From: an uncultured Chloroflexota bacterium
GTDB lineage: Bacteria; Chloroflexota; Dehalococcoidia; UBA3495
Direction of reading: 5' to 3'
Length of the DNA: 12,891 nucleotides
NCBI GenBank assembly: GCA_913052545.1
Contig: CAJXEF010000049.1
Location: forward strand, 1-12,891
The notes under the pieces were generated by a model, which was not told where the DNA came from, searched no databases, and saw only the letters and a program-made list of their open reading frames with translations. The translations under genes were made by a program, and so were the position numbers. Shown here one piece after another: positions 3,595 through 10,208 of this stretch. How positions within the stretch are numbered: position 1 is the first letter of the stretch; every line of letters starts with the position of its first letter.

Positions 3595-4659
3595 ATGGAC
3601 TTCGGTGTTTTCTTAGATTTTACTGTGAGACCTGGTGGCACTCAGAGAGAATGTTTTCAAGAGTATTTAGAACTCGCAGATCTCGGGGAAAAAACAGGGC
3701 TAGATACGGTTTGGCTCGGAGAGTCGCATTTCAATCAAAATAGAGTGGTATCAGCGCCAATTGTGATCGCGGGATCTATAGCCTCTCGTACTAGAAATTT
3801 GAGGGTTGGTATGGCGGTCCAGGTTTTGCCATTGATTAACCCGTTAAGGATAGCTGAAGAGGCTGCTACAGTGGACCAGATAAGTGAAGGCCGGTTTGAG
3901 TTTGGGGTTGGTAGAAGTGGAAATTTGAGAGCTTACGAAACTATGGGAATCCCATATGAGGAGAGTAAAGATCGTTTTCAAGAGGCTTTGGATATTATTC
4001 TAAAATCTTGGGAAGGTAATACATTCTCCTATCACGGTAAATTCAATCACATAGAAAATGCTTCTGTATCTCCGATGCCATTTACCCAGCCCCATCCTGT
4101 TGTCAGGCTCGCTTCGACCAGTGAAGACAGTTTCAGTAGGGTAGGTCGTCTTGGGTTTCCTATATTTCTTTCTATGAGAGGTATGGATATACATGATCTC
4201 GAGAGAAATCTGCAGGATTACCACACAGCCTGGAAATCTGCAGGACATCCGGGCGAGAGTGGTGATATCTCTGTCCGTGTACCGATTTATATAGGGACCA
4301 GCAAGGAAGGAGCTATGCAGGAACCCCGTGAGAGCATAGAAGCCTTTTTTCAGAGAATGCGGGTGCGCTATGAAGAAGGAAGAGACGACGAAGGTGTTGG
4401 TGGATCTACTGAAGAGAGAGCTAAAATACTCAAGGAGAGGGCAGATAGATTGGCAAGGTTGACTTATGAAGAAATATTAGAAACCAAAGTAATCTGTGGT
4501 ACGCCTGAAGAAGTTATCGAACGGCTAGCACAGTTTAAGGAGACCTTGGGGTTGACGGGTTTTACGGCGGAGTTAAATCCGGGCGGGTTATTACCCAAAG
4601 AAGCAGTTCAACGCAGCCTTCGGTTACTTACTGAGGAAGTCATGCCAGCTTTTAAATAA
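3595..4659 (+). CDS. LLM-class flavin-dependent monooxygenase (bacterial luciferase-like)
   Basis: A 354-residue TIM-barrel protein of the luciferase-like family, which uses reduced FMN or F420 to oxygenate or reduce small organic molecules in the cytoplasm. It starts with MDFGVFLDF, the usual first strand. ESHF at 43-46 takes the place of the common EHHF element, keeping Glu43 and His45 but with Ser44 in between. The strong family block ISEGRFEFGVGRSG is at 96-109. LKSWEGNTFSYHGKF (136-150) and SPMPFTQPHPVV (159-170) are also family hallmarks. The C-terminal segment around CGTPEEVIERL is the normal end. SD AAGGGGG lies 6 nt before the ATG, and a strong terminator follows the stop. Such genes are multiplied in marine SAR202 genomes, where a role in attacking recalcitrant organic matter has been proposed. 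Cofactor choice and substrate cannot be read from the sequence. Confidence 0.9.
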   Translation: MDFGVFLDFTVRPGGTQRECFQEYLELADLGEKTGLDTVWLGESHFNQNRVVSAPIVIAGSIASRTRNLRVGMAVQVLPLINPLRIAEEAATVDQISEGRFEFGVGRSGNLRAYETMGIPYEESKDRFQEALDIILKSWEGNTFSYHGKFNHIENASVSPMPFTQPHPVVRLASTSEDSFSRVGRLGFPIFLSMRGMDIHDLERNLQDYHTAWKSAGHPGESGDISVRVPIYIGTSKEGAMQEPRESIEAFFQRMRVRYEEGRDDEGVGGSTEERAKILKERADRLARLTYEEILETKVICGTPEEVIERLAQFKETLGLTGFTAELNPGGLLPKEAVQRSLRLLTEEVMPAFK

Positions 4660-5088: not shown

Positions 5089-5784
5089 TTAATTCGACGT
5101 CGCCCAATCTACCCCATTTAAGACCATTTTCTGGAATTCGGGGGTTTGGAAGCTCTGGCCATCATGACCTAAAAGTAAAACAAACACGTTTCCTTCCCCA
5201 TATTTACGAGTCCAACCTAGGGGAAAGATTCCACCCGGCATGTCCGTAGGTTGTCTATCTGGACCCCATGGGTGTACTCCATCTGAGGCGGTACCAGTTA
5301 TAAACACTTCGTTACCCTCTTTAATGGCAAGTCCCATATAAAGTTCATCATCAGTGTCGAAATCTGTCACCCCTTGTACCCCAGGATGCGTGGAATTACT
5401 GACATTAACTGTGAAATGACCGTAAGGCGGATGAAAGCTAGTCCCGCTAATCCAGCCCCCACCGGTTATATCGTGGTACTCTGACCAATGGTCTGGGAGA
5501 CAACCAGATATATGTAAGCATACGAAGCCTTTACCAGCATTTATAAAACGTTTCATACCATTTTGCTCTTCCGAGGATAATCGCAAATCCGGGGCTCCCG
5601 GGGCATTTTCCCTGCGGGTATTAAATACCAGAGCGTCATAATTATTCAATTGAGATTCATTTGCAAGAACTGATGCATCCTCAGTAATGGTCACCTGGTG
5701 CCCTGCCGATTTAAGAAAGTCATTTAGAACCGGAGTGGATTCTTCGTACGGGTGTCGGCCTCCGGAAATTACTAAAAGATTCAT
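5089..5784 (-). CDS. ThuA-like domain protein (class I glutamine amidotransferase-like fold)
   Basis: A 231-residue single-domain protein of the ThuA (trehalose utilisation) family. It opens with MNLLVISGGRHPYEES, as usual for the fold. GKGFVCLHISG (84-94) contains the conserved family His91. DTDDELYMGL (143-152) is the diagnostic DELY element. W191 is followed by YGEGNVFVLLLGH (195-207), the other diagnostic block, and the end LNGVDWA is typical. The family shares the GATase-like flavodoxin fold but lacks a standard Cys-His-Glu triad, and its members have been linked to sugar and polyol metabolism, including oxidation of disaccharides. Here there are no sugar transporters or Gfo/Idh dehydrogenases next to it, so a sugar role is not supported by context. 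The leader has GAGGT 6 nt before the ATG. It probably leads a two-gene unit with the 119-residue protein. Confidence 0.87.
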   Translation of the reverse strand: MNLLVISGGRHPYEESTPVLNDFLKSAGHQVTITEDASVLANESQLNNYDALVFNTRRENAPGAPDLRLSSEEQNGMKRFINAGKGFVCLHISGCLPDHWSEYHDITGGGWISGTSFHPPYGHFTVNVSNSTHPGVQGVTDFDTDDELYMGLAIKEGNEVFITGTASDGVHPWGPDRQPTDMPGGIFPLGWTRKYGEGNVFVLLLGHDGQSFQTPEFQKMVLNGVDWATSN

Positions 5785-5884: not shown

Positions 5885-6571
5885 CTAGACTGGGTTAAAT
5901 ACCAACCATTTTGCCGGGTTATCACTATTACTTCTCCACTCATGATCGGTGTTTGGATGAACTAATATGGCATCCCCTTCAGATACAAAAAACTCGGTTC
6001 CGTCACATTCCAGAATAGCACTGCCTTCGAGAAAAAAAGCTTGATGTTCTCCTGGGTGAATATGTTTTGGAGAAAATTCGCCCTTTAATACACCACGGAA
6101 GGCCATTGAATAAGTTTTGGCTCCATCATCCGGTCCAATTATAGTTCTGGCAGGGCCAGAACTCTGATCTATAGTATCTAGATTTTTTATGACTGGGAGG
6201 TGGTTGCCTTTGTTGTTGGTGTTATTGGACTGGGTTTCCGCTAGTAGGGCACCTAAAGGGTTGACTTCGATCCGTCTGATTACACCTTGTCCACCGTTAT
6301 TTAATGTATAGTGATCGGCGTCTGGCGGGATGTAAATCGCATCTCCTGCACGTATCGCGTGTTCGACTCCATCACAGATCAACGTCCCTGAGCCTTTTAT
6401 TATAAAGATTTCATGTTCCCATGTATGTGAGTGATGGGCGCTGGTCCTGCCAGGGTATATTTCTGAGTACGTCATTGTACAGGTTGGCGGGTTATCTTCA
6501 ACCCAGATTAGACGGGCAGCAGGCCCCTCAGGTACGTAAACGTTTCTGAAGTTTTTTATTACAGGGTCCAA
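5885..6571 (-). CDS. Bicupin metal-binding protein
   Basis: Two cupin domains in tandem, 228 residues from the chosen start. Cupin 1 has a complete motif 1 (AHHSHTWEHE, ligands about His47 and His49 plus a Glu) and motif 2 (GDAIYIPPDADH, His87). Cupin 2 has HIHPGEHQ (His170 and His172) and GDAILVHPNTDH (His210), so both barrels may bind a metal. There is no signal peptide. Bicupins include oxalate decarboxylases, quercetin dioxygenases and ureidoglycine aminohydrolases; the short length and lack of special motifs leave the reaction open. Start choice: the frame is open back to a TTG at 6604 with no SD. An ATG at 6577 sits only 1 nt from AAGGAGG, which is too close. A TTG at 6571 is 7 nt from the same SD, matching the spacing in neighbouring genes. 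I therefore prefer TTG, with ATG 6577 as the alternative. Confidence 0.83.
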   Translation of the reverse strand: MDPVIKNFRNVYVPEGPAARLIWVEDNPPTCTMTYSEIYPGRTSAHHSHTWEHEIFIIKGSGTLICDGVEHAIRAGDAIYIPPDADHYTLNNGGQGVIRRIEVNPLGALLAETQSNNTNNKGNHLPVIKNLDTIDQSSGPARTIIGPDDGAKTYSMAFRGVLKGEFSPKHIHPGEHQAFFLEGSAILECDGTEFFVSEGDAILVHPNTDHEWRSNSDNPAKWLVFNPV

Positions 6572-6578
6572 TATCATT

Positions 6579-6585
6579 CCTCCTT
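6579..6585 (-). promoter_or_regulatory. Ribosome binding site deciding the bicupin start
   Basis: A perfect minus-strand AAGGAGG lies inside the longest possible reading frame. It is 1 nt from ATG 6577 but 7 nt from TTG 6571. Neighbouring genes use 6-9 nt spacing, which favours the TTG. Confidence 0.6.
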
Positions 6586-6643
6586 GCCTGCAGATGAGTT
6601 GCAATTAGATTGGATTACGGGATTTTGATAAGAGCTCGATATG

Positions 6644-6672: not shown

Positions 6673-6712
6673 AGCAGAAATTTGAACCTATTAAACAATT
6701 TATTTGGGAATT

Positions 6713-7804
6713 ATGGCCTTTGATTTAAACGAAAATAACGTGACTGATTACCTGATTTCCGAAGGCCTGTTGAAGTATTCAGCTGTAGTTGATGTTGAAA
6801 CTTTAGGCTGGGGTATTTCAAATACGGTAGTTAAGGTGACCACTTCGGACAGAAGTATAGTAGTAAAACAGTCTCTTGAATATTTGAGGGTAAAAGAAGA
6901 ATGGAAAGCGGATAGGACTCGGATCTATAGGGAAAGAGAATGCATAGACATTTTAAAAGATGTTTTAGAGGTAGGGTCTCTCCCAGAAATTATTTACGAA
7001 GACCAAACCAATTTTTTATTTGTGATGTCGGCTGCTCCGGAAGAGAGTATTAATTGGAAAGAGTTGCTTCTATCAGGAAAAATTTCCCCTGAAATAGCGA
7101 GGGAAAGTGGTACTTTGTTAAGACGGTTTCATAATATTGATGTTGGATTACTGGGTAGGAAAACCATTTTTTCAAATCTTGATTCATTTGTTGAGCTACG
7201 AATAGAGCCCTATCATCGTACAGTCTCGCGTTTACATAGAGACGTTTCAGATATTATAGGTAGGGAGGCTGATCGAATGCTTGAAACTCAGGTTGCTTTA
7301 GTTCATGGAGATTACAGCCCTAAAAATCTGCTGGTCTTTAAAAAGAAACCATTCTTGATTGATTTTGAAGTAGCCCACTATGGTAATCCAGTTTTCGATC
7401 TCGCCTTTATGTTGAATCATTTGTTGCTGAAAGCGATTGCTAACGCCAATCAAAAAAAAGATTTCTTTGATGCCATAAAGCAGTTCTTGATAGGTTATAC
7501 CTCCTCTTCTAATTTGCCTGCCGACCACACCGTAAAGAATGGCAATCTCCAAATAGCTGTAGCTTTGGGCGGGCAGGTATCTGACAGACCGATTCGAGAA
7601 AGAGACGTAATAAAGCAAATCGGATGCCTGATGTTGGCTAGGATTGATGGTAAGTCGCCTGTAGAATATATCAACAACGACCATAGGAAGAATTTTGTTA
7701 GGAGGCTCTCCAAGCGCTTGTTGCTAGAAAATTTAGAATCTATAGCCCAAATGATCACCCTATTTGATTTCGAGATGACCTGTGACAATAAACTCAAGAA
7801 TTAA
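6713..7804 (+). CDS. APH-fold small-molecule kinase (phosphotransferase family)
   Basis: A 363-residue protein with the protein-kinase-like fold of aminoglycoside/choline/methylthioribose kinases. It should transfer phosphate from ATP to a hydroxyl of a small molecule in the cytoplasm. The N-lobe has VVVKQSLEYLRV, with Lys52 as the ATP-binding Lys, and a WKADRTRIYRE stretch (about 65-75) like that in MtnK-type kinases. The C-lobe has HGDYSPKN (198-205, catalytic Asp200 and Asn205) and the metal-binding IDFE (216-219), then GNPVFDLAF. All key residues are present, so it should be active. ATG 6713 is chosen over an in-frame TTG at 6704; neither has a good SD. The 3' end overlaps the enolase-like gene by 23 bases, so the two are translated together and probably act in sequence. 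The MtnK likeness is not enough to claim methionine salvage, as no other gene of that pathway is present. Confidence 0.85.
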   Translation: MAFDLNENNVTDYLISEGLLKYSAVVDVETLGWGISNTVVKVTTSDRSIVVKQSLEYLRVKEEWKADRTRIYRERECIDILKDVLEVGSLPEIIYEDQTNFLFVMSAAPEESINWKELLLSGKISPEIARESGTLLRRFHNIDVGLLGRKTIFSNLDSFVELRIEPYHRTVSRLHRDVSDIIGREADRMLETQVALVHGDYSPKNLLVFKKKPFLIDFEVAHYGNPVFDLAFMLNHLLLKAIANANQKKDFFDAIKQFLIGYTSSSNLPADHTVKNGNLQIAVALGGQVSDRPIRERDVIKQIGCLMLARIDGKSPVEYINNDHRKNFVRRLSKRLLLENLESIAQMITLFDFEMTCDNKLKN

Positions 7805-9095
7805 TAGCATCCATGGTAGAGAAGTATTGGATTCGAGAGGTACCCCAACGGTTGAAGTAGAAGTCGTGTTATCCGGGGGTGCCAAGGGACGAGCAATAGT
7901 GCCCTCCGGAGCATCCACAGGGACGCATGAGGCCGTGGAATTAAGAGATGGGGACGCTAGTCGATTTTCAGGAAAAGGAGTGCTTCAGGCGGTTCAAAAT
8001 GTAAATCAGGTTTTAGGTCCCGAAATTATCAGGCGTGGGTTAGCGGCAGATCAACAACAGGTCGTAGACGAATTAATCATAAGTCTGGACGGTACTGCCG
8101 ATAAATCTAACTTGGGTGCCAATGCTATTTTGGGTATCTCCCTGGCTACGGCTCACGCGGCTGCGGCGAATCATAAAATGCCTTTTTATAGGTATTTAGG
8201 TGGCGAGCAAGGCAGGGAATTACCAGTGCCAATGGTTAACATAATCAGCGGAGGCAGGCACGCTTCAGGCGGATTGGATTTTCAAGATTTCTTGGTGATA
8301 CCGGTTGGATCTCATACTTACAAGGAGTCGTTACAAGACTGCGCTAATGTTTATCGCGCTATGGGGCGATTACTCGAAGAGAAATCGATCAGCTTTTCGG
8401 GAGTCGCGGATGAAGGGGGGTATGGTCTGAATTTGCCAAGCAATGAAACGGCTATTTCTTTGCTTACCGAAGCTATAGAATTTGCAGGCTATTCCCCTGG
8501 GATTAATCAAGATATGGCCATTGGTCTGGATGTGGCAGCTTCGGAATTTTTTTCAGATGGAAAATACCATCTAAAATGTGAAGGTAGAGATCTTGTGTCG
8601 GCCGAAATAATTGAATTATTGGTGGATTGGCATAAAAAATATCCAGTGTTGTCTATAGAAGATGGTCTAGCAGAGGACGATTGGGCCGGATGGAAACTGT
8701 TGACAGATAGCTTGGGAGATAATGTGCAACTCATAGGCGATGATTTATTTACTACTAAATTAGATAGGTTAGAACGCGGTACATCAGATGGAATAGCCAA
8801 TAGTATTTTGGTCAAACCTAACCAAGTAGGTACCTTGACCGAAACTTTGGAGGTTATTACCTGGGCTCAACAGGCCGGGTTCTCACCAGTAATTTCCGCT
8901 AGGTCTGGTGAGACTGAGGACGCTACTATTGCCGACTTGGCTGTCGCTACTAATGCGGGTCAAATAAAGATAGGATCTTTGGCTAGGTCCGAACGTCTTT
9001 CAAAGTATAACCAGCTCTTAAGAATCGAGGAGGAGTTAGGGTGCAAGGCGATTTATAGGGGAAGCGAGGTTTTTTCTAGATTTGTTTCTGCCTAG
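7782..9095 (+). CDS. Enolase-family protein with altered active site (divergent paralogue?)
   Basis: A 437-residue protein alignable with enolase (2-phosphoglycerate to phosphoenolpyruvate) over its full length. Retained are the SGAST loop (42-46), His160, the Mg ligands Asp250, Glu293 and Asp320, Glu211 in ADEGGY, Lys345 in LVKPNQ, Arg374-Ser375, and Lys396 in GQIKIGS. Three changes fall at sites that are near invariant. The HRSGETED motif reads ARSGETED, so Ala373 replaces the His that contacts the substrate phosphoryl group (His373 in yeast). QEF reads QDF, so Asp169 replaces the Glu called 168 in yeast. NGGxHA reads SGGRHA, with Ser156. The rest is so well kept that a fold-retaining enzyme for a modified substrate is likelier than decay. 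The start is GTG, inside the end of the kinase gene, with only a weak SD, as expected for coupling. If the genome has no other enolase, this one would have to serve glycolysis. Confidence 0.9.
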   Translation: MTINSRINSIHGREVLDSRGTPTVEVEVVLSGGAKGRAIVPSGASTGTHEAVELRDGDASRFSGKGVLQAVQNVNQVLGPEIIRRGLAADQQQVVDELIISLDGTADKSNLGANAILGISLATAHAAAANHKMPFYRYLGGEQGRELPVPMVNIISGGRHASGGLDFQDFLVIPVGSHTYKESLQDCANVYRAMGRLLEEKSISFSGVADEGGYGLNLPSNETAISLLTEAIEFAGYSPGINQDMAIGLDVAASEFFSDGKYHLKCEGRDLVSAEIIELLVDWHKKYPVLSIEDGLAEDDWAGWKLLTDSLGDNVQLIGDDLFTTKLDRLERGTSDGIANSILVKPNQVGTLTETLEVITWAQQAGFSPVISARSGETEDATIADLAVATNAGQIKIGSLARSERLSKYNQLLRIEEELGCKAIYRGSEVFSRFVSA

Positions 9096-9191: not shown

Positions 9192-10208
9192 GTGGCTATC
9201 TATAAATCCTCATACCGAGTTCTGGTTACGGATTACGTATGGCCTTCTCTAGATCCGGAGAGAGAAGTCTTAGCCAAAATAGGAGCGGATATTATAGAAG
9301 CGCCGGATCAATCTGAAGACACTTTATCTGCATTGGCAGGTGACGTTGATGCGATAATGACTTGCTTTGCCCAAGTTACCCAGAAAGTAATTGAATCCGC
9401 CAAAAAGTGTGTTGTGATTAGTAGATATGGAGTCGGGGTAGATAATATAGCGGTAGCTACGGCGACGGATCGAGGTATCCCTGTAACGTATGTTCCTGAT
9501 TATTGCGTAGATGAGGTCTCAGACCACGTAATGGCACTTTTGTTGTCCTGGAATAGGCAAATTCCATTTTACGATGGAATTGCCAAAACAGGTGATTGGT
9601 CTGGGACTAGGTCGCCGTACCCTTTGCTGCGTTTGAAAGATAGAACTCTTGGAATTATCGGTTTAGGGAGAATTGGTCAAGCAGTAGCTAAAAAAGCCCA
9701 GTCGTTTGGGTTAAATATCGTTGCCTTTGATCCCTATAAAAATGAAGTCGATGCAGATTGTTTAGGGGTTAGATTATTGTCTCTCCCTGCATTGATGTCG
9801 TCGTCGGATTACATCACCTTACACCCTCCGTTAAACGAGGATACAAAGGCTTTAATAGATGCCGATATGATACGAAGGATGAAGCCAAATGCATATATTA
9901 TTAATTGCGCGAGAGGCCCAATCATTGATGAACAGGCTTTATATCAAGCATTGAAGAACCATTCTATAGGAGGAGCTGGTTTAGACGTCATGCAAGATTC
10001 TTCTCCTCTGCCAGATCATCCGTTATTTCGCTTGAATAACGTACAAATCACGCCTCATATAGCTTTTTTATCGCAGCAATCTGTGTTGGAATTAGAAACG
10101 CGGACGGCTCAGGCGACTGTCGATGTTTTGCAGGGTCGAATGCCGGAATTCTTAGTTAATCATGATGTGCTGGGTCAGAGCAGGATTTCGCTCGATAAAA
10201 GGGCGTAA
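9192..10208 (+). CDS. D-2-hydroxyacid dehydrogenase family protein (CtBP/PGDH-like), catalytic Glu missing
   Basis: A 338-residue NAD-dependent D-isomer 2-hydroxyacid dehydrogenase fold, single-domain type without an ACT domain. The substrate half has SRYGVGVDNI (77-86). The nucleotide motif GLGRIG is at 157-162, with Asp180 after strand 2, indicating NAD. NCARGPIIDEQAL gives catalytic Arg241, and TPHIAF gives catalytic His289. The usual DVFExEP element reads DVMQDSS (265-271), so the third catalytic residue, Glu, appears to be Ser270; Asp269 is next to it and might substitute. The C-terminal FLSQQS and LQGRMPEFLVN parts resemble bacterial proteins named C-terminal-binding-protein-like or phosphoglycerate dehydrogenase. 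The GTG start has SD AAAGGAG 6 nt upstream. It follows the enolase-like gene after 96 bases with no terminator, so one transcript is likely. A role as hydroxypyruvate/2-oxoacid reductase is possible but unproven. Confidence 0.88.
   Translation: MAIYKSSYRVLVTDYVWPSLDPEREVLAKIGADIIEAPDQSEDTLSALAGDVDAIMTCFAQVTQKVIESAKKCVVISRYGVGVDNIAVATATDRGIPVTYVPDYCVDEVSDHVMALLLSWNRQIPFYDGIAKTGDWSGTRSPYPLLRLKDRTLGIIGLGRIGQAVAKKAQSFGLNIVAFDPYKNEVDADCLGVRLLSLPALMSSSDYITLHPPLNEDTKALIDADMIRRMKPNAYIINCARGPIIDEQALYQALKNHSIGGAGLDVMQDSSPLPDHPLFRLNNVQITPHIAFLSQQSVLELETRTAQATVDVLQGRMPEFLVNHDVLGQSRISLDKRA

Follow-up and report, generated by a model that had tools for sequence, protein, structure and literature searches.

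A variant branch of enolase with an altered active site and a kinase partner in bacteria and haloarchaea

Enolase is generally regarded as a single enzyme with a single role. We describe a sister branch of the family with a fixed alternative active site and a kinase of its own, encoded on the 12,891-nucleotide contig CAJXEF010000049.1 (GenBank assembly GCA_913052545.1) of an uncultured Chloroflexota bacterium; this whole stretch of DNA is called the window below. A kinase gene lies directly upstream of the variant enolase gene, its stop overlapping the enolase start by 23 bases (Table 1), and the two very probably constitute a real functional module. Our reading of what the module does is tentative, at somewhat less than an even chance for the mechanism as a whole: the kinase would phosphorylate a three-carbon acid other than D-glycerate, and the variant enolase would dehydrate the product to phosphoenolpyruvate (PEP). 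The pair suggests an overlooked two-step route from an unusual sugar-derived acid to central metabolites.

The window enolase matches the Pfam domains Enolase_N (184 bits) and Enolase_C (340 bits) and scores 573 bits against TIGR01060 (enolase, EC 4.2.1.11), for which the cut-off is 300. We placed its residues by counting along an alignment to the C. aurantiacus enolase 4yws, which pairs D169 with Glu165, E211 with Glu206, K345 with Lys338, A373 with His366, R374 with Arg367 and S375 with Ser368. At the positions where enolases carry Asn155, Glu168 and His373 (yeast numbers), the window enolase has Ser156, Asp169 and Ala373; an initial annotation of this DNA had pointed out these three residues in a full-length enolase, and both the translation of the open reading frame and the alignment to 4yws bear it out. 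His366, at the position of His373, presumably lines the enolase active site; a literature search on the role of His373 gave nothing on point. The magnesium ligands, the K345 base, the E211 acid, K396, R374 and S375 are all present, so the earlier description of the metal ligands, K345, E211, R374 and K396 as intact agrees with the alignment. According to PMC4450660, 2-phosphoglycerate (2-PGA) and PEP are bound in the C. aurantiacus enzyme by Glu165, Glu206, Lys338, Arg367 and Ser368; four of these five contacts are retained in the window enolase, and the fifth (Glu165, here Asp169) is one carbon shorter. His366 is not among the ligand-binding residues given there.

These substitutions are shared widely. 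Among 7998 scored homologues, the best 120 all carry S156, D169 and A373, which rules out a sequencing error or a change private to a single genome. We aligned 137 variants (120 search proteins, the window enolase and 16 from gene loci) with 136 ordinary enolases, all from loci, the pool including enolases from loci of a viral scan. Positions 156, 169 and 373 read S, D and A in 137/137 variants and N, E and H in 136/136 ordinary enolases. Position 209 is A in 136 variants and V in one, compared with G in every ordinary enolase, and position 397 is I or V in variants compared with T, S or A. Five positions therefore change together, two more than the initial annotation had listed. At the catalytic, metal and phosphate positions checked, there is no difference between the two groups (one ordinary row has X at 168). 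No intermediate residue sets occur among the 137 variants and 136 ordinary enolases, although intermediates could have been missed because most variants were picked by similarity to the query.

Of the 120 further proteins listed by a second search, which started from a diverse alignment of variants, every one has G156, D169, A209, A373 and V397 and keeps all eleven catalytic positions; E211 is present in every one of them, as it is in all 137 variants above. The sources of this Gly156 lineage are mostly Proteobacteria and Streptomyces (they include Rhizobium, Paraburkholderia, Burkholderia, Bosea, Cupriavidus and Streptomyces), and the records carry the names enolase or phosphopyruvate hydratase. 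The co-occurrence of the three original residues thus holds as a strict split, with Gly replacing Ser156 in one lineage. The sole clear outlier is a far relative on an Enterobacter chuandaensis plasmid (locus L229), which has Gly156, Cys209, Gly373 and Lys for E211.

Because the base, the acid, the metals and the phosphate ligands are retained, Mg-assisted proton removal from a phosphorylated acid would survive in the variants. The initial annotation had reached the same view and had proposed an analogue of 2-PGA as substrate, with a remodelled phosphate pocket. The second part is not supported: R374, S375, S45, H160 and K396 are the same as in ordinary enolases. The first part stands as the natural reading, because the changes co-occur strictly and the catalytic set is kept.

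Phylogeny also separates the two groups. The first tree comprised 89 enolases: 28 variants, 16 ordinary enolases from variant-bearing genomes and 45 of 120 other ordinary enolases, about 75 having been dropped at random. All its variants lie on one side of a branch whose support is 100/100. The second, with 39 variants and 36 ordinary enolases (100 of the 120 others dropped at random), took in 16 variants from plasmid records, including Haladaptatus and Halomarina; L229 and the split locus L231 were left out, and L233 forms a long branch. Here too, the variants make up one side of a branch, with support of 100/99; for both trees, every one of 200 bootstrap trees keeps the variant label undivided. 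Judged by their sequences, the variants are a separate enolase subfamily spanning Bacteria and Archaea.

They also coexist with the usual enzyme. We found 17 variant-bearing genomes, the window's own genome not being among them: 15 from Chloroflexota and 2 from Actinomycetota (the phylum of a Streptomycetaceae genome). A second, ordinary enolase with the SHRSGE motif (His373) is present in 16 of the 17, so among these relatives the initial annotation's paralogue, with a canonical enolase elsewhere in the genome, is what is found, and this tells against the variant being the cell's glycolytic enolase. The exception, G057, has the variant as its single match and is a multi-contig assembly. By residue pattern, the variant occurs in 2/396 genomes of an Actinomycetota sample, in 6/6 in the order of genome G081 and in 7/41 in its class. 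One genome of the Chloroflexota sample (G181) has five enolase-family matches, at 55, 46, 36, 32 and 31% identity.

The kinase, which the initial annotation missed, tracks the variant enolase closely. A kinase profile (E up to 1e-30) found 15 of 400 Chloroflexota genomes, and all 15 have the variant enolase. The enolase pattern found 13 of the same 400, every one within those 15; it missed G057 and G209 because their variants read SARSGDTED and SARSGESED. In G085 and G701 the two genes lie on separate contigs, each at a contig end in fitting orientation, and the G701 variant is the last third only. We then compared 36 loci (the window and 35 others). Kinase and enolase homologue occur together in 34, the remaining two (L168 and L182) being cut by contig ends; in 29 they are adjacent on the same strand, in one (L229) adjacent and divergent, and in four (L222, L224, L226 and L234) about 4-6 kb apart. 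The enolase precedes the kinase in three loci (L223, L225 and L232). Among 80 control loci of ordinary enolases the kinase is found in none, even at E 1e-5.

Spacing was compared in 16 loci. In all 11 outside the order of G081, a possible enolase start lies no more than 4 bases past the kinase stop or overlaps it; within that order such a start exists in 1/5 loci, the other four having additional N-terminal sequence in between. In that order (L129-L133), in-frame MDSRxRGNDG-like repeat inserts interrupt several kinases after NMFVL and lengthen the enolase N-terminus; the sequences give the impression of a repeat element tolerated within the coding frame.

Plasmid loci were retrieved with the kinase as query, and 18 were picked by hand, for diversity and annotation, from the 32-33 matching records per search. 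All 18 have the enolase, adjacent in 14 (the diverged L229 included) and in the same cluster in four. In the reverse test, 18 plasmid records had an enolase sharing at least 60% identity with the Rhizobium N324 one, and the kinase is present in all 18. Plasmid records with the pair come from the archaea Haladaptatus and Halomarina and from Rhodococcus, Embleya, Azospirillum, Rhizobium, Methylobacterium nodulans, Cupriavidus, Paracoccus, Roseibium, Sphingobium and Persicobacter. Overall, the pair is found in Chloroflexota, Actinomycetota, Proteobacteria and haloarchaea, with Dictyobacter among the genome loci. This dedicated kinase pairing supports the idea of a phosphorylated substrate.

Table 1. 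Genes of the module and its surroundings in the window
Feature	Position	Strand	Description
Partner kinase	6704..7804	+	APH-fold, methylthioribose-kinase-like; HGDYSPKN loop, IDFE, ARIDGKSPVEY C-terminal motif
Variant enolase	7782..9095	+	Open reading frame with GTG start, 437 aa, 0 internal stops; S156/D169/A209/A373/I397 signature
2-hydroxyacid dehydrogenase (phosphoglycerate-dehydrogenase-like)	9192..10208	+	Third gene; Pfam 2-Hacid_dh_C 194 bits; nearest solved chain 1wwk (phosphoglycerate dehydrogenase)
Bicupin	5885..6604	-	Pfam Cupin_2 103 bits, 2 stretches; divergent from kinase
ThuA-type protein	5089-5784	-	Flanks module
Luciferase-like monooxygenase	3595-4659	+	Flanks module

The kinase scores 72 bits against Pfam APH and 69.2 bits against TIGR01767 (5-methylthioribose kinase, MtnK), where the cut-off is 275. 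Its structural model has a pLDDT of 85, and the best Foldseek match is the A. thaliana methylthioribose kinase 2pyw (TM 0.78). It shares the overall fold and the HGD catalytic loop with MtnK and differs from it in its score and in having 15-21% identity in structural alignments. The resemblance led us to consider a methionine-salvage enolase (the MtnW role); the annotations of the plasmid regions name no gene of methionine salvage, and no search was aimed at such genes.

Beyond the pair, recurrent companions in the loci are FAH-type hydrolases, HpaI-type aldolases, sugar-acid dehydratases of the mandelate racemase (MR) type, short-chain dehydrogenases (SDRs), cupins, HpaD-like dioxygenases and sugar or tricarboxylate transporters. 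Homologues of the window 2-hydroxyacid dehydrogenase (2HADH) that are 38-47% identical to it accompany the pair in L179, L218, L219, L222 and L224, and a profile finds 2HADH in L225, L226, L230, L232 and L234. We compared 27 representative variant loci, thinned by hand, with the 80 ordinary-enolase loci, using profiles seeded from members in those loci: FAH genes occur in 10 vs 0, 2HADH in 8 vs 0, HpaI in 3 vs 0, MR-type dehydratases in 6 vs 1 and SDRs in 12 vs 0. Leave-one-out tests, which covered three of the profiles, recovered the seed locus for FAH (5/5), 2HADH (6/6) and MR (4/4). Two FAH hydrolases that were tested score best to 2,4-didehydro-3-deoxy-L-rhamnonate hydrolase, under its cut-off, and the MR-type dehydratase of L177, which is encoded on the opposite strand, reaches 636 bits against galactonate dehydratase (cut-off 311). 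On plasmids of Rhizobium N324, R. indicum and Rhizobium Pop5, the gene order is LysR, ppc (PEP carboxylase), 2HADH, kinase.

In the mechanism we favour, the kinase would use ATP to phosphorylate the 2-hydroxyl of a three-carbon 2,3-dihydroxy acid other than D-glycerate. In the variant enolase, Lys345 would take the C2 proton while Mg ions hold the enolate, and Glu211 would expel the C3 hydroxyl to give PEP, which PEP carboxylase could use. Because 16 of the 17 genomes have an ordinary enolase, we consider D-2-phosphoglycerate an unlikely kinase product; what the kinase makes is probably something that the ordinary enzyme cannot use. The three-carbon acid may come from sugar acids split by the neighbouring FAH-type hydrolases or HpaI-type aldolases, or from a neighbouring dehydrogenase. 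FAH hydrolases and HpaI aldolases can cleave six-carbon sugar acids to pyruvate and a three-carbon piece; L-hexonates would leave L-glycerate by such cleavage, and L-rhamnonate (the 6-deoxy case) leaves L-lactate. The simplest candidate route would be L-glycerate to L-2-phosphoglycerate to PEP, L-glycerate being preferred because L-hexonate cleavage would leave it. No downstream enzyme common to all 36 loci was seen, as expected if the product is PEP itself. We infer both reactions, the substrate, the stereochemistry and the product. The most specific form of the proposal is a mirror-image lower glycolysis, in which an L-glycerate 2-kinase and an enolase of inverted stereochemistry (L-2-phosphoglycerate to PEP) would make up an unrecognised and widespread catabolic module of Bacteria and Archaea for L-glycerate derived from L-hexonates; in that form we think it unlikely.

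Several observations weigh against the proposed mechanism. The genes following the pair (2HADH, SDR or, in L214, an LDH2-like frame judged by eye) do not fit a single pathway, and the third gene varies by lineage. No FAH, HpaI or MR gene is present in the 12.9-kb window, in L176, L178 or L183 or in the loci from the order of G081. PEP carboxylase adjacency is confined to one Rhizobium lineage. For a D-2-hydroxyacid dehydrogenase, D-glycerate is a more fitting partner than L-glycerate. The 80 control loci are a biased set, since ordinary eno sits amid housekeeping genes, and one of them shows a 2HADH when the cut-off is relaxed; the SDR profile finds 0/80 controls even at E 1e-5, and the SDR contrast (12/27 vs 0/80) may be overstated. 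Enolases of the L177/L178/L180/L181 type are just 44-47% identical to that of the window. The identity of the substrate, perhaps L-glycerate, is something we infer, and the changes at 156, 169 and 373, which shrink side chains, would be at least as compatible with a larger substrate as with an inverted one.

A larger substrate is the basis of the rival we take most seriously, although we still consider it unlikely: the pair may act as an ATP-dependent, iron-free dehydratase for C4-C6 aldonic acids, with the kinase product, a 2-phospho-aldonate, converted by the variant enolase to an enol phosphate that becomes a 2-keto-3-deoxy acid, and the pathway finished by FAH, SDR or aldolase neighbours. 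Replacing N with S or G, E with D and H with A could open room at C3, and the kinase fold resembles that of a kinase for a five-carbon sugar. Clusters in Roseibium and Paracoccus have a transporter, an SDR and an FAH protein and no dehydratase by name, as such a pathway would have it; in Dictyobacter, G706, G326 and haloarchaea, however, MR-type dehydratases lie near the pair, and a second dehydratase might be redundant there. The loci also have no common enzyme to use or dephosphorylate an unusual enol phosphate, and the PEP carboxylase neighbour in Rhizobium counts against this reading.

We think it improbable that the variant is an ordinary enolase in function, with the kinase acting as a D-glycerate 2-kinase. 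The serine cycle has a segment made up of hydroxypyruvate reductase, glycerate 2-kinase, enolase and PEP carboxylase, and the pair could supply the hydroxypyruvate-to-PEP part of it, with 2HADH as hydroxypyruvate reductase and PEP carboxylase after. The same enzyme types are present in the Rhizobium clusters, but the enolase active site is altered, and we take the partner kinase to belong to another family than the known glycerate 2-kinases. Gene order favours this explanation: kinase, enolase and 2HADH stand in a row in the window and in L179, 2HADH, kinase and enolase in L219 and L230, and ppc, 2HADH and kinase in Rhizobium, and the TIGR01060 score is far above its cut-off. Yet a private enolase would be unnecessary in the 16 of 17 genomes that already have an ordinary one, while variant and kinase were never found apart. 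In addition, every variant whose alignment covers these positions lacks His373 and has Asp for the Glu that contacts substrate in the C. aurantiacus enzyme (Glu165; PMC4450660).

Very improbable, to our minds, is a variant that does not dehydrate and instead epimerises or isomerises a phosphorylated acid by C2 proton transfer or expels another C3 group such as sulfite: the changed residues E168 and H373 presumably sit on the leaving-group side, and the far Enterobacter relative has lost E211 (Lys) while still lying beside a kinase and near 2HADH, but E211 is kept in all 137 aligned variants and in all 120 proteins of the second search, and no sulfite-handling gene was noticed in the annotated clusters, although none was searched for.

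In its relation to known systems, the variant shares with enolase (TIGR01060) the fold, both Pfam domains, the length, the Mg ligands, K345, E211, K396, R374, S375, H160 and Q168. It differs by having S/G156, D169, A209 (V in one), A373 and I/V397 instead of N, E, G, H and T/S/A, and by its separate branch, its kinase partner and its coexistence with ordinary enolase. The MR/MLE branch (COG4948) has the same superfamily chemistry, and its members are encoded near the pair in several loci; the window protein matches Enolase_N and Enolase_C instead, with no match to MR_MLE_N or MR_MLE_C at E 0.001. Some homologues have a precomputed PF13378 match beside the enolase domains. The enolase-superfamily expansions described for SAR202 Chloroflexota are of COG4948, according to the passages of PMC6946804 and PMC10444878 consulted, and COG0148 is absent from the main text of PMC6946804; identity with the SAR202 expansion is ruled out to that extent. 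A literature search on the carboxyphosphonoenolpyruvate synthase of bialaphos clusters as a counterpart gave nothing usable. Searches for such a pair in the open-licence PMC literature turned up no description among the papers listed, an absence that is weak evidence.

If the two-step reaction is true, it would be a new ATP-dependent dehydration of hydroxy acids without an iron-sulphur cluster, and the two genes would offer an assayable test of what the His, Glu and Asn positions of enolase specify. There is a consequence for annotation as well. Variants are recorded as phosphopyruvate hydratase or enolase in Rhizobium, Paraburkholderia, Streptomyces, Rhodococcus, Chloroflexota and haloarchaea, and glycolysis inferred from an enolase annotation can count the wrong gene in variant-bearing genomes.

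Some neighbouring genes deserve separate mention. At 1e-8, tblastn against the other loci covered gave no match to the window bicupin. Annotated cupins of different types do lie close to the pair in haloarchaea, Rhizobium, Rhodococcus and Sphingobium; an association of the bicupin with the module is possible but unproven. Clusters on Rhizobium, Cupriavidus, Rhodococcus and Sphingobium plasmids (L222, L224, L225, L226, L230, L232 and L234) share many genes, i.e., an HpaD-like dioxygenase, a cupin, a zinc alcohol dehydrogenase, an FMN-reductase-like protein, an FAH hydrolase, 2HADH, the kinase and the variant enolase. In the Enterobacter locus L229 (8232-16614), the gene next to the kinase homologue, in divergent orientation, encodes an enolase-fold protein whose annotation reads hypothetical. 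Its cluster also encodes a 2-hydroxyacid dehydrogenase, an aminotransferase, redox enzymes that contain iron, and a nucleotidyltransferase, and it looks biosynthetic rather than catabolic.

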